From contig NZ_LT629758.1 of assembly GCF_900104725.1 (NCBI RefSeq), forward strand, positions 3,534,001 to 3,598,000: a DNA stretch of 64,000 nt, read 5' to 3'. This document shows positions 51,157 to 61,976 of this stretch, piece by piece. How positions within the stretch are numbered: the first letter of the stretch is position 1; each line of letters starts with the position of its first letter. A program made the position numbers and the translations under genes. Origin of the DNA: Actinoplanes derwentensis (GTDB lineage Bacteria > Actinomycetota > Actinomycetes > Mycobacteriales > Micromonosporaceae). Under the pieces are notes generated by a model. That model was not told the DNA's origin. It searched no databases and worked only from the letters and a program-made list of their open reading frames with translations.

Positions 51157-51705
51157 GTGCGTAACGAGCAGCGAATCCCGACCCGGACACCGGAATCCCG
51201 AGACTTTGCGGTACGCGTACAAACAGTGATGAATTTGACCGCGAAACTCAACGCGCTGCCGTTCGACGATCTCGCGGCCCGCCGGAGGTTGCTCACCGAG
51301 ATCTTCGGCGGGCCGATCCCGGAGTCACTGTCGATCCTGCCGCCGTTCCACTGCGACTACGGGCTGGGCGCGTCGTTCGGCGAACGCGTGTTCATCAACC
51401 AGGGCTGCTACTTCCTCGACCTGGGCGGCATCACCATCGGTGACCGGGTCCTGATCGGCCCCCGGGTCACGCTGACCACCGCCGGTCATCCCGTCGAACC
51501 CGCCGAACGCTACGACTACCTGACCCACGCCCCCATCGTCATCGAGGACGACGTGTGGATCGGCGCCGCCGCCACCATCACCCCCGGAGTGACGATCGGC
51601 CACGGCTCGGTCGTCGGCGCGGGCGCGGTGGTCGCCAAGGACGTGCCCCCACTGAGCGTGGTGACCGGCACCAGCATCGTGGAACGCAGACGCCTATCTC
51701 ACTGA
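51157..51705 (+). CDS. Left-handed beta-helix acetyltransferase (maltose O-acetyltransferase type)
   Basis: About residues 60-182 form hexapeptide repeats (ITIGDRVLIGPRVTL; PIVIEDDVWIGAAATITPGV; VVGAGAVVAKDVP) with the catalytic His in TTAGHPVEP. The substrate end has FHCDYGLGASFGERVFINQG. Typical of maltose/galactoside O-acetyltransferases. From GTG 51157; an ATG at 51229 is an alternative that removes 24 residues. Confidence 0.88.
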   Translation: MRNEQRIPTRTPESRDFAVRVQTVMNLTAKLNALPFDDLAARRRLLTEIFGGPIPESLSILPPFHCDYGLGASFGERVFINQGCYFLDLGGITIGDRVLIGPRVTLTTAGHPVEPAERYDYLTHAPIVIEDDVWIGAAATITPGVTIGHGSVVGAGAVVAKDVPPLSVVTGTSIVERRRLSH

Positions 51706-52295
51706 GGCCGGGCCTTCTGCGGGTGAGGCGTCTCGTGGCGGGACAGCATCGCGACGAACTCGACGATCTTGCGGGCTCGGGTCTCGGCACGCTTGACGGA
51801 GTTGACCCGCACGATCAACGCGAACCGGTTGCTCTTGGTGAGCACGTCGAACATGGCCTGCGCTGCCGGATCGGCGGCGATCGCGGCCGCCAAGTCGTCG
51901 GGCACCACGGCTTCGGACGGCGGGGCGTAAGCGGCCGCCCACCGGCCGTCCGCCCTCGCGGACTCCACCGCCGCCCGGCCCGCCGGGAACATCAGCCCCG
52001 CCGCCTCCAGTCGGGCGACGTGCTCGACGTTCCGCTTCGACCAGGAACTACGCGCCCGGCGCGGGGTGTACCGGATCCACGAGGACTCCTCGTCCCGCTT
52101 ACGGGCCTGCCCGTCGATCCAGCCGAAACACAACCCCTCGTCGACCGCCTGCTGCCAGGTCAGCGTGGTGACGGTGCCACCCTTCCTGGTCAGGGCGAGC
52201 CACACGCCGGGCGCTGACGTGTGGTTCGCCAGCAGCCACGCCCGCAGCGCCCCGGAGTCGGCGACGATCAGTTCCGGCAGTTCAGCGGCAGCCAC
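51699..52295 (-). CDS. YdeI/OmpD-associated-family protein
   Basis: A 198-residue protein with LRAWLLANHTSAPGVWLALT, then VDEGLCFGWIDGQARKRDE and WSKRNVEHVARLEAAGLM, the signature of the YdeI (OmdA) family. GTG start at 52295. Linked in E. coli to envelope stress. Separated by only 6 bases from the downstream end of the deaminase-SUKH gene, so it may be in the same transcript. Confidence 0.85.
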   Translation of the reverse strand: MAAAELPELIVADSGALRAWLLANHTSAPGVWLALTRKGGTVTTLTWQQAVDEGLCFGWIDGQARKRDEESSWIRYTPRRARSSWSKRNVEHVARLEAAGLMFPAGRAAVESARADGRWAAAYAPPSEAVVPDDLAAAIAADPAAQAMFDVLTKSNRFALIVRVNSVKRAETRARKIVEFVAMLSRHETPHPQKARPQ

Positions 52296-52301
52296 GGCCG
52301 A

Positions 52302-53558
52302 TCAGCTCCAGGTGCCGTCGTCGCGGACCCGGTAGGTCCGGCGACCCGAGGTCAGCGTCTCCAGAGCCTCCAGGTAGGTGTCGGCCACAAACCACTCACC
52401 GGCCTGATCCAGATCGAAGACCCGCCCATGCTCGTCGATGGCCAGGACCGATTCGCTGTTCACCCGGCCCAGCGGAAGCAGACGGGCCCCGATCACCTGA
52501 CCGAATTCGTGCAGCAGGTCGGCGGTATGAGCCGCGGTCCCCGGATGGATCTCGAAGAGGCGGGAACGCTGGGACACACCCGGCGCACGACGGCTGGCCC
52601 CGACCAGTCCGGTGTAGCCCATCGCCTCGGCGAACGCCGCAAACGACTCGTGCCGGAACTCCTGACCGGCGACCGGGAGGATGTCCTCCTCCAGCGTGCC
52701 CTGCATCATCTCGGCGACCAGCTCCCGCGGTGCATCCGGCCACCATCCGCCGTTGAGCAGTTCAGAGGCAGCCGTGTCGGAGAAGACGGCCGGGACGGGG
52801 TTAGGCCGGGGCTCCGCCCTGAACTCGTGCAAAGCCCCGGAACTGGCCCACGGCAGCAACGCCAACTGGGTGAGCACGTAGACGCAGGTCTCGCACGGGT
52901 CGTTGGCCTTGCCGCCCAACGGGTCACCGGGGGCATGGATCTGGAACGTCTGGAACTGTGATCCCCGCAGTGAGGCCCGTGCCTCGTCGAGGGTGACCGG
53001 GGGAAGGCCGTCCAACGCCCGGCGCCGGTCCACGTCGTGCAGCGCGTCGGAGCAGGCGATCAGTTCGGCATGCCGCTCGTGACCGCGAACCTGCTCGTGG
53101 GGTGTCTGCTCGGCCAGCCGTTCCAGCACCAGCCGGTGATGGTTGAGTTTCTGGTCGCCTTTGGCTCCACGGCTGATGTAGACACGCCCGCCGACCGTCG
53201 CGTGTGCGGCGATACTCGGCGCTACCCGGCGGTGGATGTCGCGGCGTAGCTGCACCTCCGGGTCGGCGGTGCGAGGCGGGCCGACGATGTCGTCGCGGTT
53301 GTTCCGGTACATCTGCTGCACCGTGTCGAACGGCAGGTTCGGCCACGTCGACAGTCGCCCGGTCTCCCGGTCGATGATCTGGGCACCGCCGCCGATCTCG
53401 ACCGGCGGTGAGCCCGGCCCGACCGGTGGAGGCGCGGTCAAGGTGACGAGGAACCCCAGGTCGAACTCCTGGACCAGAGCTCTGCGCTCCTGGCCGGTCA
53501 ACGTGTGGAAACGGGCCCAGGTCGCCGCGATGGCGTCGGCCTCCGCACGAGTGATCAC
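52302..53558 (-). CDS. YwqJ-type deaminase fused to Imm35-like and SUKH-3-like modules, copy A
   Basis: A 418-residue fusion. N-terminus (1-95): Imm35-like strand/helix unit with IIDRETGRLSTWP. Middle (about 105-240): YwqJ-related deaminase core with ARGAKGDQ-like turn, HAE (163-165 in ERHAELIACSDAL) and PCETC (221-225), i.e. all three Zn ligands. C-terminus (about 258-418): SUKH-3-like fold with AASELLNGGWWPDA, LHEFGQVIGARLLPLG, then SVLAIDEHGRVFDL. Starts with GTG 53558 inside the stop of its paralogue (GTGA). No signal peptide. It may be an immune adapter, a cytosolic effector, or a toxin-immunity fusion. Confidence 0.75.
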   Translation of the reverse strand: MITRAEADAIAATWARFHTLTGQERRALVQEFDLGFLVTLTAPPPVGPGSPPVEIGGGAQIIDRETGRLSTWPNLPFDTVQQMYRNNRDDIVGPPRTADPEVQLRRDIHRRVAPSIAAHATVGGRVYISRGAKGDQKLNHHRLVLERLAEQTPHEQVRGHERHAELIACSDALHDVDRRRALDGLPPVTLDEARASLRGSQFQTFQIHAPGDPLGGKANDPCETCVYVLTQLALLPWASSGALHEFRAEPRPNPVPAVFSDTAASELLNGGWWPDAPRELVAEMMQGTLEEDILPVAGQEFRHESFAAFAEAMGYTGLVGASRRAPGVSQRSRLFEIHPGTAAHTADLLHEFGQVIGARLLPLGRVNSESVLAIDEHGRVFDLDQAGEWFVADTYLEALETLTSGRRTYRVRDDGTWS

Positions 53559-54808
53559 TGTTCGTTCCTCCAGGTGCCGTCATCACGGATACGGGCATTC
53601 GGTAAGCCCATGACCAGCGCGATGATCGCCTCGTCGAGCGTCTCCCCGATGAACCACTCGCCGCCCTGATCGAGCGAGAAGACCCGGCCGCGCTCGTCGA
53701 TCGCCAGGATCGCCTCGTCGAAGCCCTCGGAGCCGAGCGGGAACATCCTGGCCCCGGTGACCTGGCCCAGTTCGTACAGCGGATCGGCCAGATAGCGGCC
53801 GCCACCGCCGGAGTTGATCTGGAAGGAGCGGACGCGCTGCCCCAGGCCGGGCCCGTTGCGGCGGGTCATCACGTCATGGAACTGGAGGTACGCCTCGCGA
53901 GCCGCCGGAAACACCCGGATATGGTGCTCGGTGTCCAGGTCCCGGTCGTCTTCGGTGTTCGCCAGGTCCGACTCGGCCCGGCGTGATCGTCCCCATCCCG
54001 CCGCGGTCAGCTCCCACGCCACCTCTGGCGGGAAGCGGCCGGGCTGCGGGTCGTCGCCCGAGGTGGCCCGTCGGATCAGCTGGTTGACCCGGTGGATGTC
54101 CTCCGAGGCCGCGAGCATCCCCAGCTCCACCAGAATCTCCCAGCAGGTGGCGCACAGATCGGTGGGCCGGCCGCCGCGGAAGTCGTTCTCCTCGCGGATG
54201 TAGAACGTCTCGAATCCGCCGTGGCCCAGCAGCACCCGGGCCTCGTCGAGGCTGAGCGGTGTCTGGCCGGCTCCGGCACGGGTCTGATCGGCGTCGGCGA
54301 ACACGTCCGACAGCACCAGCAGTTCGGCGTGCCGCTCAGCGCCGCGGATCCGGGCCTGTCGCGGGATCGCTTCGAGCAGTCCCGCGACCAGCGGATGATG
54401 GCGCAGCTCCTGGTCGCCCTTGGCGCCACGGGCCCGGAACAGCCGGCCACCCAGGGTGATGTGTGCCGCCACCGACGGGCTGACCCGGCGGTGGGCCTCC
54501 CGGCGCAGTTCGGCGATCGGGTCGGCGGTCCGGTGCGGGCCGTTCACGGTGTCCCGGCGCTCGGTGTAGATCCGGTCGAGTTCCTCGGAGGGTGCCGGCG
54601 GCCAGTACGACAGTCGGCCGGTCTCACGGTCGACGACGGTGGTCAGGTCGGCGCCCGGCTGAGTGCGGATCTCCGGCGGCAACCGCATCCAGACCGCGAA
54701 CCCGTGGGTCAGTTCGTCAACCTCCGGCATGCACTGGTAGCCACGCCGGAACGACTGCCTGCGAGCCCACCCGCCGGCAATGTCCTGCACCTCGGCCAGC
54801 GTGATCAT
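53555..54808 (-). CDS. YwqJ-type deaminase fused to Imm35-like and SUKH-3-like modules, copy B
   Basis: A paralogue of the downstream gene (417 aa) with the same module order. The deaminase core has ERHAELLVLSDVF (His160, Glu162) and Cys219/Cys222 in LCATC, where the usual Pro before the first Cys is Leu. The SUKH-3-like part ends with LYELGQVTGARMFPLG and AILAIDERGRVFSL. From ATG 54808, divergent from the YbaB-WXG-effector cassette with 128 bases between. Divergence of the two copies (matched motifs, different sequence elsewhere) fits recognition of different partners. Confidence 0.75.
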   Translation of the reverse strand: MITLAEVQDIAGGWARRQSFRRGYQCMPEVDELTHGFAVWMRLPPEIRTQPGADLTTVVDRETGRLSYWPPAPSEELDRIYTERRDTVNGPHRTADPIAELRREAHRRVSPSVAAHITLGGRLFRARGAKGDQELRHHPLVAGLLEAIPRQARIRGAERHAELLVLSDVFADADQTRAGAGQTPLSLDEARVLLGHGGFETFYIREENDFRGGRPTDLCATCWEILVELGMLAASEDIHRVNQLIRRATSGDDPQPGRFPPEVAWELTAAGWGRSRRAESDLANTEDDRDLDTEHHIRVFPAAREAYLQFHDVMTRRNGPGLGQRVRSFQINSGGGGRYLADPLYELGQVTGARMFPLGSEGFDEAILAIDERGRVFSLDQGGEWFIGETLDEAIIALVMGLPNARIRDDGTWRNEQ

Positions 54809-54936
54809 CCAGCCCGCCCCCTTCGGTCCGTCCGTGCGAGCTTAGAGCCCTCGGCCAACGCCGCTCGGTGGAGGCCCGGGGTTGATTCCTGCTGGTAGGT
54901 TCTGTCAGTCAAATCGCGAGTCCGGGGGAGACAGCC

Positions 54937-55365
54937 GTGAGCAGACAGGCCGACCGCGACGCGAATCATGCACTTCGCGCGCGTTTCGATGACGTGGTGT
55001 CGCAGTACCAGCGCCTCCGCCTGGGCCTTGACGACCTGCAGGAACGCCTATCGGCCATGACGGTGACGGCCGAGTCGCCGGACCGGATGGTCAAAGCCAC
55101 CGTCGGCCCGCGCGGGCAGCTCGTCGATCTGAAATTCGACCCCGAGGCCTACCGCCGCCTGACTCCCGAACAGCTCTCCCGGACCGTTCTGCGGACCGTC
55201 GAGCAGGCTGTCGCGCAGACCACAGACCAGGTGCAAGAGATCGTCGGCGAGTACCTTCCGGCCGATTCCGGCGCGTCCCGGTTCATGCGGGACGGCCAGT
55301 TCAGCAGCTTCCTCGCCCGCCAGGACCGGGTGATGCGGGAAGCCGGTGACGACGATGGCCGGTGA
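54937..55365 (+). CDS. YbaB/EbfC-like small protein at the head of the effector cassette
   Basis: 142 residues from GTG 54937 with a strong ribosome site (GGGGGAG). It has a helical start (RFDDVVSQYQRLRLGLDDLQ), then MVKATVGPRGQLVDLKFDPE and a helix with LRTVEQAVAQTTDQVQE, as in YbaB/EbfC nucleoid-associated proteins. Variants of this fold are frequent at the head of WXG-effector operons in actinomycetes, where they may act as chaperone or secretion partner. Its stop overlaps the next start by 11 bases. Confidence 0.8.
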   Translation: MSRQADRDANHALRARFDDVVSQYQRLRLGLDDLQERLSAMTVTAESPDRMVKATVGPRGQLVDLKFDPEAYRRLTPEQLSRTVLRTVEQAVAQTTDQVQEIVGEYLPADSGASRFMRDGQFSSFLARQDRVMREAGDDDGR

Positions 55366-55693
55366 GCAGCTCTATCTCGACGCGCCGCGAGCCACCGCGG
55401 GCGGGCGCGACCTGACGCTGGCCGGCAACGAGATGGTCAGCATCAACAACAGCACCGTCGCCGCCATCGCCGCGGCCAGTGAGAACAAGCCGTGGGGCAA
55501 CGACGACATCGGCGCCGCGTTCCAGAAGAACTACGCGCCGCTGCTCCAGAAGTTCACCGAGGCGTTCGGTAACGTCGCCCAATTCGTCGAGGGTCTCGGC
55601 GAGGCGGCGGTCGCGAGCGTCGAGGACAACATGAACGCCGACGCGCGCTCCGGCGAGACCGTCCAGAACGCGTACCGGACGCCCCTGACATGA
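55355..55693 (+). CDS. WXG100/EspC-like secretion-associated protein
   Basis: 112 residues, helical hairpin with NKPWGNDDIGAAFQKNY in the middle, a WxG-like turn between two amphipathic helices. ATG 55355 is used. The stop overlaps the effector gene start (ATGA). Probably forms a heterodimer with the effector N-terminal domain for type VII export. Confidence 0.78.
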   Translation: MAGEQLYLDAPRATAGGRDLTLAGNEMVSINNSTVAAIAAASENKPWGNDDIGAAFQKNYAPLLQKFTEAFGNVAQFVEGLGEAAVASVEDNMNADARSGETVQNAYRTPLT

Positions 55694-58600
55694 CGATGCT
55701 GCCCAGCCCCATCCCCCACCCGCTCGACTTCTCCCCCTGGGATCTGCCCGGCTGGGCGTACGAAGCCCTGGAATGGGTCGTCGGTTTCGACTGGCCCGAG
55801 GGCAACGAGGCGCTGACCTGGGACATCGCCGACCAGTGGTATGCCCTGGCCGACGCGATGGTCGGCCCGCGCGAGGACTCCGTCCTGGCCGCGCAGCAGA
55901 TCATCGACGCCTACGGCGGTAGCGGCACCACGATCGACGCGTTTGTCGCCGCGTGGAATCAGATCGCCGCCGGTGGCGACGAGGCGCCACTCAACTCACT
56001 GATCACTTTCGCCGACGCGATGGCCCAGATGGTGTGGGAGTGCGGTGGCGACATCGAGGCCGCCAAACTCGAGGCGTGGATCGAGCTCGGCCTCTTCGTC
56101 ATCGAGCTGATCGCCCTGGCCGTCACGGTCGCGCTCACCCTCGGCGCCGCCTCGCCCGCGGCCGGTGGACTCATCGCTGCCACCCGCTTCACCATCCAGC
56201 AGATCTTCAAGAAGCTCGTCGCCCAGCTCGCCAAGAAGACGATCAAGCAGGCGCTCAAGGATGCCGGAAAGCGCGCCGCCAAAGACGTACTCACCAAGAA
56301 GGGTTTGAAGAATCTCGGCAAGAACGCCTGGCGTTCAGCCAAGGACGAAGCCCGGGAAGAAGCCTTCACCAACACCCTCGTCCAGGGCTATCAGGACGCG
56401 GCCGGGCACGGCAACTTCTCGGTCAGTGAACTGGGGATGTCCGCGCTCGGCGGAGCGGCCGGGGGTGCGGCGGCGACCGGCGGCGGCATCGGCGGCAACG
56501 GCAAGGGCGGCGTCTTCCGCGGAGCCGCGTCTGATGTCCTCGGTGAGATCGGTGGATCGGCCGTCAGCGGCGACTTCCCCAGCTTCGAAGACCTGGCCAA
56601 GGCGGGCACGTCCGGCGCCGCCGGCACCTCGGTCTCCAACACCGGTGACGCCTTCAAGGACGTCCGTTCCGACCTCAACGGCGGCGACCTCAAACTCAAC
56701 GGCTCGCTGCCGGCGTCTTCCGGACCTTCGAACACTTCTTCCGGTACGGGTGGGAGCAGCCCGAGTCTCGACTTGTCGGGTGGGGGAGATTCTGGATCGT
56801 CGTCGGGCTCGTCCTCCGGCGGCGGATCGTCCTCCTACTCAGGTGACGGATCATCCTCGAGCGCGGATTCGTCCTCGTCGTCTTCAGGCTCGTCGTATTC
56901 AGGCTCATCCTCTTCGGCCTCGTCATACACCACCGCTTCGCACTACTCCCCGTCTACGTCTACCGCGTCCTCCTCCGACGGCGGGTCGTACTCGGCTTCC
57001 TCGTCCTCGTCCTCTTCTTTCACTCCCTCCTCGTCTTCGTCCTCCTCCGATCACGGGTCTGCCCCGTCCGTTTCGGCACAGGGGGACGGGGGCTCCTCGG
57101 CCGCTTCGTCCAATCAGGCCTCGTCCGGTCCTGCCGCGTCTACACCGGCTGGTTACAGCCACTCGTCGTCGTCGGACAACGACGTGCGGCTGTCGTCGTT
57201 CGCGCCCCCGGCGGAGTCCCCGGCACAGACCTCCGGAAACACTGGTATGTCGTCGCCGGCTTCGAGCCCGGTCAACACGGCGCCCTCGGGCGGCAACCCT
57301 TCGACGAACGCGCCGATGGCTTTCGCGCCCGGCACTGTCAACAGCGGGCCGCTGGGCGGAGCTCCCAACCCGAACGTGTCCCTCGCGACCGGCGGGCCCA
57401 CGCCGAGCAGCTTCTCGCCGTCGACCACCCCACCTTCAACCGTCCCACAGTCGGTCACTTCACCGTCGACGCCGAACATCAGCCCGGCGACCACCTCGCC
57501 AGGCTCCCCCACGCTGCCGAACGTCAACACCTCGCCGAGCAATCCCCCGCCCACCGGCACTTCACCGCAGGGCCCGTCACCGGCGACGACAACACCCGGT
57601 CCCAGTACACCGGCGACCGCCAACCCGGCAACGAACGCCCCCACGTCGACGAACCCCAGCACCCCATCGGCGGCCACCCCGAACACCCCGAACACGACCG
57701 GTCCGGCGAATCCGAGCACGCCCAGCCCGAAAGGCCCGGGCCCGGCCGGTTCGCCGCCGGTCCCGGACGCCGGGCGTGGCAACGACGCAATCGCACCTGC
57801 GGGTATGCACGGCTCCCCGAACCTGACCTCGCGGACCCCGGACGAGGCGAGATTCGAGCAGGCCTACCTAGATCAGGGCGCACGCAACAAGAAGACCGTC
57901 GAGAACACCATCAGGGACCGCGCGCTCCAGGCGTTCGACAAAGAGATCACGCGAACCAGGGACGCGCAAAATTTCGCCAGACGCGAGGCGCAGAAGGCGT
58001 TCCGACTGAACTTCTCGAAGCGCGCCCACTACCAGAACATGGAAGCGCACTACCAGCAGCAGGAGCAGGATGCTCTGCACCGGCGTGCGCTGGCCATGCA
58101 CTTCTTGAGCCAGCCGTACAAAGTCCATCTCGACCCCGACAGCGGGCCGAATCACCAGGTGGCCAACGACGAGTCGGCCTTCCACGTCGATGACAGTCCG
58201 ATCTGGCACAACGACCAGTCGGCGCTGACCGGAAACGACAATCCGCCCAACGTCAGGACGACCCGGCCGTACGGCGAGCGCGGCGGTCTTCGTCCACCGC
58301 TGCCGATGCACCAGGCGGACCTGGAGCGTGTCTTCCCACTGGACTCGAATGGCCGGCCGGAGCGGGCCGCGGATCCCCGTTCGACCTACCTGAAGCTCAT
58401 GAACGACGGCGGGCCCGGCGCCGACCCGCAGCGCGGTGTCAACTGCTTGGACTGCGCCCTGTCGTTCCTGGAGACCTACGTGCATGGACGCCCGACGGTG
58501 TCCGCCGCCCGTACTGCTGATTCCTATGGTTTCGGCCAGCCCGACACCCTCGACGGCGAGAAAGACGGCCACTACCGGGCCGAGCAGGCGACCGGCAGCG

Positions 58601-61125
58601 GTTTCACCAGCCTCACGCAGCGGTGGCTGGAGGGCAACACCCGGCCGGCCGCCGACGTCAAGGCCGAGGTCGACGCCGGTTTCCAAATGATCATCGATAC
58701 GCTGAAAACGGGCGGTCACGGTTCCGCCGCGATCATCATCAACGTATGGGAGGGCAACTCCGCGCACGCGTGGAACGCCGTCAACCACAACGGTGAGATC
58801 GTCTTCGTCGACCCGCAGACCGGCGAGTACACCGACTTCTCCAACATGGTCAGCACGGCTGCCAACCCGCAATTCGGTACCCACTACGGTCACACCGGGC
58901 TTCCGAACCGCAACAACGTCGTCGAGCTGAACGCCCTGATGATCGACGGCCAGGGCAACCCGATGTCGGTACCGAACACCCATCAGTCTCCGCACTACAG
59001 TCGCCAGCCCACCCCGCCTCCGCCGCTGGCCTGGCAGCAACAGCAGGCGCAACTCCAGCAACAGACGAACCCGCTGCCCCCACCGCCGCCTGTGCCGGGA
59101 CCGCCGCCCCCTCCCTCTCCCGTCAACACTCAGCCGGACCCCGGTCCGGCCGTCGAAACGCGGGTCGACACCACGCCGCCTGGACCGCCTGCGGTGGACA
59201 CTCAGCCGACACCCGACGTGCAGGAGCCGACCGATTCGGATCCTTTGCGGGAAAGCTCCACTGCGGACCCGAGCCCCCAGCCGGAGCAGGACACCACCCC
59301 GGAACCGGAGGACAGCAAGCCGCAGCCGCACGACTTCGATCCGCTGTCGGTGCTGGACCCGCACTCGATGGACCGGCCACCCACGGACGATCCGTTCGCG
59401 GTGCTGGATCTCTCGCCGAAGCCGGCGCCCACGCCGGAACCCACCGTCGACACCGAGCCGGACAACGCTCGGCCGGATGAGGTCAAGACCGAGAACGACC
59501 TCACGCTCGCCGACACTTCGGACACGCCAGTCCCGCAACCGGCACCACCGGTCGATCGGGAGGCCGAGCAGCGGACGAAGGACGCCTACCACTTCGAACT
59601 CGACAGCAAACGCCGCGGTTTCGACACCGAACACCGCGACAATCTGGCCCATGACCTGCGTAGGCAAGCACGGGCGAGGGACGACGAGGCGGACGAGCAC
59701 GCCCGGCGGAACCGGGTAGCCGACACCCTGGGCGACCCGGCGGATGCCGCCCGTCGTGAGCAGGAGCGCGAGCAGATGCGCGCCGAAGCGGACAGCCTGC
59801 GGGAGCAGGCGAACCAGGTGGAGCGCGGCGGTCCGATCGGGGACGTCGAACTGAGTGGTTCGGACTGGGAGCGGGCCAACGAGACCTGGGCCGATACCAG
59901 CCCCGGCCCGGTGGAGACGGATGACCGGTCGGCGTTGACCGGCGACGGGGAGCCGCGACCGATCGACACGACCCGGCGTTACAACGAGCGGGGCGGTCTG
60001 CGGCCGCCGTTGCAGATTCACCAGACCGACCTGGAACGGGCGATGCCCCGCGACCAGGACGGCAACGTGGTTCGTTTGGCGGATCCGCGTGAGGGTGCCT
60101 GGTTCGGCCTGCAGAACGACGGCGGTCCCGAGGCGGATCCGACCCGCTCGAACAACTGTGGCGACAACGCCTTGTCGTTCTACGAGTCGTACATGCACGC
60201 CCGCCCGCGCGTTTCCGCTCCGCGCACGTTCGACGGCTACCACCGCGGCGACGTGAACAGCCCGATCGACCCGGAGACCGGTGTCATCGACCGGATCGAA
60301 CAGACCACGAACTCGACGTTCGAGGGCCTGACCGATGTCGGCGATCTGTCGCCCGAGGACGCTCGCAACCAGATCCGGATGGCCGAGAGCCGCCTGCACC
60401 ACCACCTGCTGGGCACCGGCCACGGTTCGTTCGCGTTCATCACGACCCAGGACCAGGCCGGCCGCACCCACATTTACGAGGCGGTCAACCAGAACGGCAC
60501 GATTCTCTACGTCGACCCCCAGACGAGGGCCGTCCGCGAGAACTCCCCGCTCTACACCAACACGGGCCGAGGCGTGGGCCCCGACGTGGTCCGCATGGAC
60601 GCCCTGACGCTGGACGGCCAGAACCGCCCCCGACCCCTCCACACCGGCGACGCCCCGAACATCGCCACCGACCCCTCCGGGACGTCCTGGCAGGTCGCAG
60701 ACTCGGTTGTCGGCCCCGCCAAGGGCGCGAGGATCACTGCGCCACATCCCCGGCATACCGTGAGCGGCGCCCGCGGTGCACGGTCGAAAGACAACAACAC
60801 CGTGTACCTGCGAGGGTACGAGTCCTACCGATTGTCAGATACGCAGGCGATCGCGGAGGGGCGTGCCCCGTGGAACTCAGAATTGAAAGCATATGTAATC
60901 GAAGGACGCAGATACAACGTAAAGGACAAGAAGACCGTTTATCCGCTTGATGGGCCCGGTATGGTGAAACTCGAACGCGCCGAATACTCCGCCCTTGTAG
61001 CGATCGCCGATGCTTACGGCGATGTTTCAGCCGCCACCGCATTGACCCGAAACCCGTTCATCGCCAACTTCCCGGGCGCGGCAGAGAAGGCCAAAGCGAT
61101 CTACGATGGGACATATGAGCCGTGA
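55690..61125 (+). CDS. Giant type VII-type effector: CpnT-like N-domain, two papain-fold toxin domains, novel C-terminal tip
   Basis: 1811 residues. The N-terminal about 160 residues match the WXG100-like/CpnT N-domain (WAYEALEWVVGFDWPEGNEA), followed by hydrophobic segments at about 130-165. A Ser-rich and then Pro/Thr-rich linker spans about 340-710. The first Tox-PL (papain-fold, glutamine deamidase-like) domain is about 868-1090, with Cys919 (NC), His1026 and Asp1041. A second Pro-rich and coiled-coil segment leads to a second Tox-PL, about 1410-1650, with Cys1490, His1594, Asp1609. The last about 130 residues, after TAPHPRHTVSGARG, match nothing I know and are less GC-rich. Immunity candidates follow, starting with GTGA overlap. 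Confidence 0.88.
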   Translation: MTMLPSPIPHPLDFSPWDLPGWAYEALEWVVGFDWPEGNEALTWDIADQWYALADAMVGPREDSVLAAQQIIDAYGGSGTTIDAFVAAWNQIAAGGDEAPLNSLITFADAMAQMVWECGGDIEAAKLEAWIELGLFVIELIALAVTVALTLGAASPAAGGLIAATRFTIQQIFKKLVAQLAKKTIKQALKDAGKRAAKDVLTKKGLKNLGKNAWRSAKDEAREEAFTNTLVQGYQDAAGHGNFSVSELGMSALGGAAGGAAATGGGIGGNGKGGVFRGAASDVLGEIGGSAVSGDFPSFEDLAKAGTSGAAGTSVSNTGDAFKDVRSDLNGGDLKLNGSLPASSGPSNTSSGTGGSSPSLDLSGGGDSGSSSGSSSGGGSSSYSGDGSSSSADSSSSSSGSSYSGSSSSASSYTTASHYSPSTSTASSSDGGSYSASSSSSSSFTPSSSSSSSDHGSAPSVSAQGDGGSSAASSNQASSGPAASTPAGYSHSSSSDNDVRLSSFAPPAESPAQTSGNTGMSSPASSPVNTAPSGGNPSTNAPMAFAPGTVNSGPLGGAPNPNVSLATGGPTPSSFSPSTTPPSTVPQSVTSPSTPNISPATTSPGSPTLPNVNTSPSNPPPTGTSPQGPSPATTTPGPSTPATANPATNAPTSTNPSTPSAATPNTPNTTGPANPSTPSPKGPGPAGSPPVPDAGRGNDAIAPAGMHGSPNLTSRTPDEARFEQAYLDQGARNKKTVENTIRDRALQAFDKEITRTRDAQNFARREAQKAFRLNFSKRAHYQNMEAHYQQQEQDALHRRALAMHFLSQPYKVHLDPDSGPNHQVANDESAFHVDDSPIWHNDQSALTGNDNPPNVRTTRPYGERGGLRPPLPMHQADLERVFPLDSNGRPERAADPRSTYLKLMNDGGPGADPQRGVNCLDCALSFLETYVHGRPTVSAARTADSYGFGQPDTLDGEKDGHYRAEQATGSGFTSLTQRWLEGNTRPAADVKAEVDAGFQMIIDTLKTGGHGSAAIIINVWEGNSAHAWNAVNHNGEIVFVDPQTGEYTDFSNMVSTAANPQFGTHYGHTGLPNRNNVVELNALMIDGQGNPMSVPNTHQSPHYSRQPTPPPPLAWQQQQAQLQQQTNPLPPPPPVPGPPPPPSPVNTQPDPGPAVETRVDTTPPGPPAVDTQPTPDVQEPTDSDPLRESSTADPSPQPEQDTTPEPEDSKPQPHDFDPLSVLDPHSMDRPPTDDPFAVLDLSPKPAPTPEPTVDTEPDNARPDEVKTENDLTLADTSDTPVPQPAPPVDREAEQRTKDAYHFELDSKRRGFDTEHRDNLAHDLRRQARARDDEADEHARRNRVADTLGDPADAARREQEREQMRAEADSLREQANQVERGGPIGDVELSGSDWERANETWADTSPGPVETDDRSALTGDGEPRPIDTTRRYNERGGLRPPLQIHQTDLERAMPRDQDGNVVRLADPREGAWFGLQNDGGPEADPTRSNNCGDNALSFYESYMHARPRVSAPRTFDGYHRGDVNSPIDPETGVIDRIEQTTNSTFEGLTDVGDLSPEDARNQIRMAESRLHHHLLGTGHGSFAFITTQDQAGRTHIYEAVNQNGTILYVDPQTRAVRENSPLYTNTGRGVGPDVVRMDALTLDGQNRPRPLHTGDAPNIATDPSGTSWQVADSVVGPAKGARITAPHPRHTVSGARGARSKDNNTVYLRGYESYRLSDTQAIAEGRAPWNSELKAYVIEGRRYNVKDKKTVYPLDGPGMVKLERAEYSALVAIADAYGDVSAATALTRNPFIANFPGAAEKAKAIYDGTYEP

Positions 61126-61976
61126 CCTACGCTCTCTTGCTCCAGGATTCCCCCGACAGACAGCGTTTGGCATCTGCCATCGCGGCCGTTCTGTCAGTGC
61201 CGATCGAGTCGGTGGATGTCGCGGAAGACGGCGATGACAACCGGAATTGGAAGGCGCCGGTCATTTGCACCGTCACCTCCATCGGTGGTGACCTGCGTCA
61301 GAGTATTCTCATCTACGTTGCCGACACTTCTGGCGAGAATATTTCCCAGGAAATCGCGGCGGCAAGGCTCGCCGAGCGGTTGAAGACTCCTGTCGCCTAT
61401 GAGGCGATGCCGATTCCTCCGGATATGTATTGGCTTGTCGGCGCAGACGGCAGGCGAAGTCGAGCGCGGATCAACGATGACGAAGACGACGGTGAACTCG
61501 TCGCTTTCCGGGTTGAGGCCGTGGAACAGCCAGTCGCCGGCGCACCTGACCTGCCCGTGGGCCCGGTCCCCGAGGTCATCCACAGCCACCGGATCCCGAC
61601 GCCTCTCACCGATCAGTTTCGGGGCTCCCCAGCCTCTGACGGCACTGGATGGGTGGTAGTAAGCCGGCTCGCCTCGTGGGAAATCATGATCACTCGCCTG
61701 ATCGAAGGCTGGCCACCGGACGGCTGGTACCCGGCCGAGTACTACCGGGACGACCTCGGTTACCGCGACGACCTAGTCACCGGTGTCGGTGAACTTCCGG
61801 ACGAGGTAAGAGGCGATTTCGCCGAAGTGCTGGCCACTCTGGATCGTCGCTTCGCCCAGGCGACTGTCGACGACGCCGGCCGGGCATTGGCGGCCGCCAC
61901 CGGACCGGTGCCGGATCGCTGGTGGTGGCACCGGATCACGGATCCCCTTCCGTGGCACGACATGCCTGGAGGTTGA
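61122..61976 (+). CDS. Candidate immunity protein, 284 aa
   Basis: GTG 61122 overlaps the effector stop (GTGA), so expression is tightly coupled. The product is acidic, with no signal peptide. It has an N-terminal alpha/beta unit (YALLLQDSPDRQRLASAIAA) and a C-terminal helical part with WEIMITRLIEGWPPDGW. No family recognised. Position directly after a toxin tip is the usual place of the cognate immunity gene. Confidence 0.7.
   Translation: MTYALLLQDSPDRQRLASAIAAVLSVPIESVDVAEDGDDNRNWKAPVICTVTSIGGDLRQSILIYVADTSGENISQEIAAARLAERLKTPVAYEAMPIPPDMYWLVGADGRRSRARINDDEDDGELVAFRVEAVEQPVAGAPDLPVGPVPEVIHSHRIPTPLTDQFRGSPASDGTGWVVVSRLASWEIMITRLIEGWPPDGWYPAEYYRDDLGYRDDLVTGVGELPDEVRGDFAEVLATLDRRFAQATVDDAGRALAAATGPVPDRWWWHRITDPLPWHDMPGG

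Follow-up and report, generated by a model that had tools for sequence, protein, structure and literature searches.

Tandem genes encode Imm35-like, deaminase and SUKH-3 domains in one chain

What does a toxin-type deaminase do between two domains of immunity families? The question is raised by two tandem genes on the minus strand of the window, the 64,000 nt stretch of the Actinoplanes derwentensis genome analyzed here. Copy A (52302-53558, GTG start) encodes 418 aa and copy B (53555-54808) encodes 417 aa, and their ORFs overlap by 4 bp. This agrees with the initial annotation, which had described two overlapping genes for proteins of ~418 residues, each with an Imm35-like N-terminus, a YwqJ-type deaminase core and a SUKH-3-like C-terminus. 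In copy A, the Imm35-like domain comprises residues 1-95 (53274-53558) and the deaminase domain residues 104-240 (52839-53249), with the HAE motif at H163-E165 (53064-53072) and the CxxC motif at C222-C225 (52884-52895), while the SUKH-3 domain spans residues 256-418 (52305-52793). Copy B has the same architecture, with the deaminase domain at residues 97-229 (54122-54520), in which HAE and CATC are present, and the SUKH-3 domain at residues 259-401 (53606-54034).

The deaminase and SUKH-3 assignments were borne out in both copies. The YwqJ-deaminase model PF14431 matched copies A and B with E-values of 3.8e-20 and 7.2e-18 (72.9 and 65.5 bits against a curated cut-off of 25.9), and the SUKH-3 model PF14433 with E-values of 4e-22 and 2.1e-30 (79.4 and 106.3 bits against 23). 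The deaminase domain of copy A also gave deaminase-fold matches, and its C-terminal domain matched YobK/Knr4/Syd. For the N-terminus, Pfam's own Imm35 model (PF15567) was silent, both on the N-termini of copies A and B alone and on all 90 scanned homologues. However, hhalign paired the N-terminal third with a profile of 13 Imm35 domains gathered from related genomes at 94.7% in one direction and 81.1% in the other, against at most 8.9% for unrelated profiles and at most 4.5% in 50 column shuffles. By profile-profile comparison with these controls, the N-terminal third is homologous to Imm35, so the annotated Imm35-like domain stands at this level although not at that of Pfam. Each chain therefore holds two immunity-type domains, Imm35-like and SUKH-3, the minimum for a polyimmunity protein.

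The predicted model of copy A is confident and compact (pLDDT 96, pTM 0.92). Pfam revealed no export domain in the fusion chains, which also lack a hydrophobic segment; each copy has a single YxxxD/E string, and the two positions are unrelated, so a shared export signal is not evident from the sequences. No known anti-phage defense protein in PADLOC matched the fusion at E-values up to 0.1. At E ≤ 1e-3, copies A and B have 420 and 176 homologues, respectively, and most of the best 120 listed for each copy bear both Pfam labels. Proteins of this kind already bear database names like 'SUKH-3 immunity protein/YwqJ-like deaminase'. Among the PMC titles and abstract openings searched, none was plainly devoted to the three-domain fusion; a survey of deaminases from 2011 (doi 10.1093/nar/gkr691) may mention it.

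A YdeI/OmdA-type gene (51699-52295, minus strand; Pfam OmdA) starts 6 bp past the stop codon of copy A and probably shares the operon with the fusions; a homologue is present in one of the 80 named loci compared below (L056, A. couchii). Elsewhere in the same genome (G000:C1:7323369-7323686; L003, L048), a third, weak YwqJ-type match lies near a short SUKH-3-like stretch.

The fusion operon is divergent from a type VII effector cassette

The initial annotation had placed the fusion pair divergently from a type VII effector cassette, and this arrangement was confirmed. A gap of 128 bp (54809-54936), which from its position may hold both promoters, separates the fusion operon from genes on the plus strand for a YbaB/EbfC-like small protein of 142 aa (54937-55365; PF02575, E 4.5e-17), a small WXG-like protein of 115 aa (55346-55693; named from its size and position, with no Pfam match) and a type VII-type effector of 1811 aa (55690-61125). 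The effector consists of a WXG100_2-like N-terminus, two Tox-PL1/Gln_amidase domains, PL1a (58441-58824) and PL1b (60151-60528), and a variable C-terminal tail with no Pfam match (60640-61122). The NC-H-DPQ residues are intact in both PL1 domains and are of the type given as the Tox-PL1 signature in section 12 of Zhang et al., 2012 (PMC3482391).

The effector stop overlaps by 4 bp with the gene for a 284-aa protein (61122-61976, plus strand), which belongs to no Pfam family and has homologues in six other loci (L023, L029, L056, L058, L060 and L066). This protein is possibly the immunity protein of the effector tail, but its link to the tail is unsure because the homologues sit beside two different tail clusters. 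On the fusions' own strand, no toxin gene adjoins them within the window.

The divergent locus is conserved among relatives

We asked how far this architecture is conserved, as the initial annotation had proposed. The whole divergent YbaB-WXG-effector cassette adjoins the fusion in 77 of 80 named loci, in four of which the contig ends within the effector, ahead of PL1. The exceptions are L102, where the fusion lies about 1.1 kb from the contig end, L108 and L125. In a set of 24 relatives' loci (L023, L024 and L026-L047), which overlaps with the 80 in some species and excludes the distant, partial or cut loci L025 and L048-L055, every fusion is accompanied by a WXG gene and a PL1 effector, and YbaB was matched in 22. 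Copies A and B form sister clades (94/83). The tail-to-tail fusion pairs of genera g39 and g40 are placed elsewhere in the tree than the tandem pairs, and the origin of their second fusion is unsure because of long branches.

The fusion follows PL1 in presence and copy number

Among 150 genomes of the window's family, effectors were collected by N-terminal matches at E ≤ 1e-31, which leaves out a second effector piece in G029 (E 4e-30) and all weaker matches; one of the latter, in G089, was fetched as L184 and has fusion and PL1 together. The 64 effectors comprise 51 with PL1 and a nearby fusion, 11 with neither and two mixed cases (Fisher p = 1.9e-10, the genomes being related and the counts thus not independent). 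Both mixed cases look like contig breaks: the effector of G173 runs off its contig, and in G076 two fusions and a two-PL1 effector lie on different contigs. The 11 'neither' effectors (L171-L181), which were fetched and contain no PL1, come from g29, g41 and, as third copies, g39; g29 and g39 also have effectors of the first kind. These 11 loci share the effector N-terminus, and in some of them several kb separate the effector from the YbaB and WXG genes.

The number of fusions also agrees with the number of PL1 domains. Where both could be seen, two fusions were matched by two PL1 domains in 7/7 cases among the relatives' loci, 11/11 among the 80 named loci and 13/13 among the 150 genomes (11 of these 13 being from genus g39). 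Single-fusion loci mostly have one PL1: 13 of 17 relatives' loci with the cassette (two PL1 in four), 57 of 66 named loci with the cassette (two PL1 in five, cut in four) and 33 of 38 loci in the 150 genomes in which PL1 was seen (two PL1 in five). The single-fusion loci with two PL1 domains show that the correspondence is not exact, and a coevolution test did not assign copies A and B to PL1a and PL1b.

Fusions without an adjacent effector were found in L108, L125, G069 and G126, as expected of immunity genes. G126 has no such effector and encodes another PL1 protein far off; G069 has no PL1 at E ≤ 1e-10. Imm35 matches in relatives are also found near PL1: in a comparison made by hand, 6 of 15 Imm35 matches in 60 relatives, one of the six being under the Pfam cut-off, have a PL1 on the same strand no more than about 4 kb away. 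PMC3482391 ties Imm35 to Tox-PL1 and considers it a possible protease inhibitor.

To which part of the effector is the fusion linked? In 67 effectors with tails longer than 60 aa, the N-terminus and the last PL1 matched in 2211/2211 pairs, and the tails in 554 (BLAST E < 1e-3, with more than half of the tail covered). Among the 260 pairs whose PL1 domains are at least 75% identical, the tails were similar in 130. By single linkage, 56 tails fall into one cluster, and the 11 tandem-fusion loci are distributed over six others. It is the constant PL1 part, and not the effector tail, that the fusion accompanies. Most effectors seen have PL1 in an internal position, and in some it lies at or near the C-terminus, with 19-29 aa following it in L046 and L047 and 31-62 aa in six Micromonospora loci. 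When ten tails were scanned, two from Micromonospora (L081:4916-6286 and L070:4797-6206) matched RelA/SpoT.

The deaminase site is kept in the close family and altered in some lineages

The HxE and CxxC motifs provide the zinc and catalytic residues of YwqJ-like deaminases. The initial annotation had taken the LCATC of copy B for an altered active site next to the intact PCETC of copy A. The alignment contradicts this: HAE and both CxxC cysteines are present in both copies and in 223/223 aligned close rows, which were drawn from the best-listed homologues and from fusions in fetched loci, with some species appearing twice. Many relatives have L, F, A, S or other residues just ahead of the first cysteine, and the residues between the cysteines vary; by this alignment, the LCATC of copy B is ordinary for its clade. 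In a 90-row subset, identity to copy A falls to about 40%. Such constancy of the catalytic residues suggests that selection acts on deaminase chemistry within the close family.

Widening the comparison to 159 three-domain proteins, namely the two window copies and 157 distinct locus proteins, gave an intact site in 144 and an altered one in 15. Both cysteines are replaced (PAESS) in L162 (9923-11245) and L190 (3299-4972), and within genus g39 HPD stands in place of HAE in six second copies, as does HAD in three copies from further loci; the remaining altered-site proteins are in L053, L054, L161 and L164. These changes require a minimum of four events on a 54-row tree. Altered-site fusions share their locus with a PL1 effector in L162, L164, L168 and L190, and also in L188, next to an intact copy. 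As the variants without CxxC cysteines still accompany PL1 effectors, the partnership with PL1 needs no deamination, and catalysis is dispensable in some lineages, given the 15/159 proteins with an altered site.

The deaminase resides in the effector in some relatives

None of 103 close-family effector frames, some from the same species, contains a deaminase, Imm35 or SUKH-3 domain. In L049, L156, L170, L185 and L186, the effector or its frame includes a deaminase immediately ahead of PL1, which has a CAE or CVE and a CxxC of its own. A frame for Imm35-SUKH-3 that lacks the deaminase occurs in the same stretch in L049, L156, L170 and L186, and in L154 for the genome of L185, at distances from adjacent to about 11 kb from the effector and not always divergently.

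In outgroups, a deaminase-bearing gene is followed on the same strand by a separate, overlapping SUKH-3 gene (13 pairs in 12 loci); the pairs of L050 and L051 have lost the deaminase site. A sample of the class gave matches at E ≤ 1e-25 in 39/394 genomes, 36 of which belong to genus g88, perhaps Streptomyces, most of what is seen there being the SUKH-3 part or a split pair. The simplest reading of these arrangements is a stepwise origin of the fusion, probably from separate toxin and antidote genes.

Discussion

The architecture of these proteins is real, conserved and unusual; an antidote dedicated to PL1 that has captured a deaminase explains it best. We consider it probable (roughly 0.6) that the fusion is a cytosolic partner dedicated to Tox-PL1, with an Imm35-like inhibitor and a captured deaminase capped by SUKH-3. 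The Imm35-like N-terminus would most likely bind and inhibit the PL1 domains of the type VII effector encoded divergently from it, either to protect against delivered PL1 or to block premature self-processing in the producer. The PL1 linkage, the match in copy number and the fusions found without an effector fit such an inhibitor of, or immunity protein against, PL1. The YwqJ-type deaminase in the middle has its full set of catalytic residues; it would have been captured from a toxin-immunity pair, and the fusion's own SUKH-3 domain most likely caps it in cis, whatever its substrate and the time of its release, if any, may be. By analogy with the 13 outgroup pairs, in which SUKH-3 follows the deaminase, SUKH-3 would neutralize the toxin domain. 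A table in PMC3482391 pairs SUKH with Tox-PL1 as well as with YwqJ, so that PL1 might be the target of SUKH-3 instead; in that table Imm35 is also listed for Ntox40. Counting against the preferred explanation, the fusion is divergent from its effector, unlike the usual order of toxin and then immunity gene.

A narrower form of this explanation, whose odds overlap with it, holds that PL1 is solely a self-processing peptidase and that the fusion times effector maturation and confers no immunity. Internal PL1 in most effectors and the far greater variation of the tails beyond it are in favor, as is the self-processing role proposed for internal Tox-PL1 in section 12 of PMC3482391, but terminal or nearly terminal PL1 in some loci is not, and fusions without an effector suit immunity better; we regard it as somewhat unlikely. 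In a further reading, a toxin domain would have shifted from weapon into antidote, as an armed guard fired by foreign toxin or as a part exported with the effector, a broad proposal that strikes us as rather unlikely. In the guard, Imm35 would sense a papain-like toxin and SUKH-3 would restrain the deaminase; once foreign toxin displaced SUKH-3, the enzyme would be set off inside the cell. An immunity protein that is booby-trapped such that foreign or excess PL1 on Imm35 frees an active, SUKH-3-restrained deaminase and leads to self-damage or dormancy is quite improbable. The catalytic residues are unchanged in all close rows though PL1 pairing survives elsewhere without them, and the compact model would fit coupled domains, but PADLOC holds no relative.

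No better odds go to a deaminase fold that just separates Imm35 from SUKH-3 or serves as a lure, with its chemistry irrelevant: the altered sites, and the CxxC-less proteins of L162 and L190 beside PL1 effectors, would be accounted for, whereas four catalytic positions unchanged in every close row at the divergence reached there would not. Still less probable is that the fusion rides with the effector through the contact of Imm35 with PL1 and delivers the deaminase as cargo, replacing in trans the effector-embedded deaminase. The domain is indeed found inside the effector in five relatives and in the partner in the close family; however, the chains lack a hydrophobic segment and an evident shared export signal, fusions exist without an effector of this type, and SUKH-3 would be carried along. 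The functional readings offered by the initial annotation, namely a defense or decoy protein, a self-neutralized effector or an adapter, are partly supported overall.

Antidote proteins are normally viewed as binders without enzyme activity. A conserved antidote-type protein that has kept a toxin-type site unaltered throughout its close family and follows one effector domain would show that toxins and antidotes trade parts, and the relatives with the deaminase in the effector instead of the antidote belong to the same argument. As variants with and without the catalytic residues exist in nature, the two functions can be told apart and the role of the embedded enzyme can be tested directly.

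The fusion resembles several known systems. Like the pairs of Imm35 (PF15567) and Tox-PL1, it matches the Imm35 profile at its N-terminus and has a partner effector with Tox-PL1 and NC-H-DxQ residues, but its N-terminus is below Pfam detection, and it is encoded divergently and fused to deaminase and SUKH-3. With YwqJ-type toxins and their SUKH immunity proteins it shares the deaminase and SUKH-3 families, which form separate gene pairs in relatives, but here both are in one chain without an export domain. Polyimmunity proteins, as described by Zhang et al., 2012 (PMC3482391), also have two unrelated immunity domains per polypeptide; the present fusion differs from them in the toxin-type enzyme between the domains and in adjoining one type of effector. 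Operons for polyimmunity proteins usually lack a toxin gene, while the fusion has none beside it on its own strand in the window but a divergent effector next to it in 77 of 80 loci. The SUKH-Tox-GHH fusion tabulated in the same paper likewise joins an immunity and a toxin domain in one chain, whereas the present fusion has another toxin domain, an added Imm35-like domain and a linkage to PL1 effectors.
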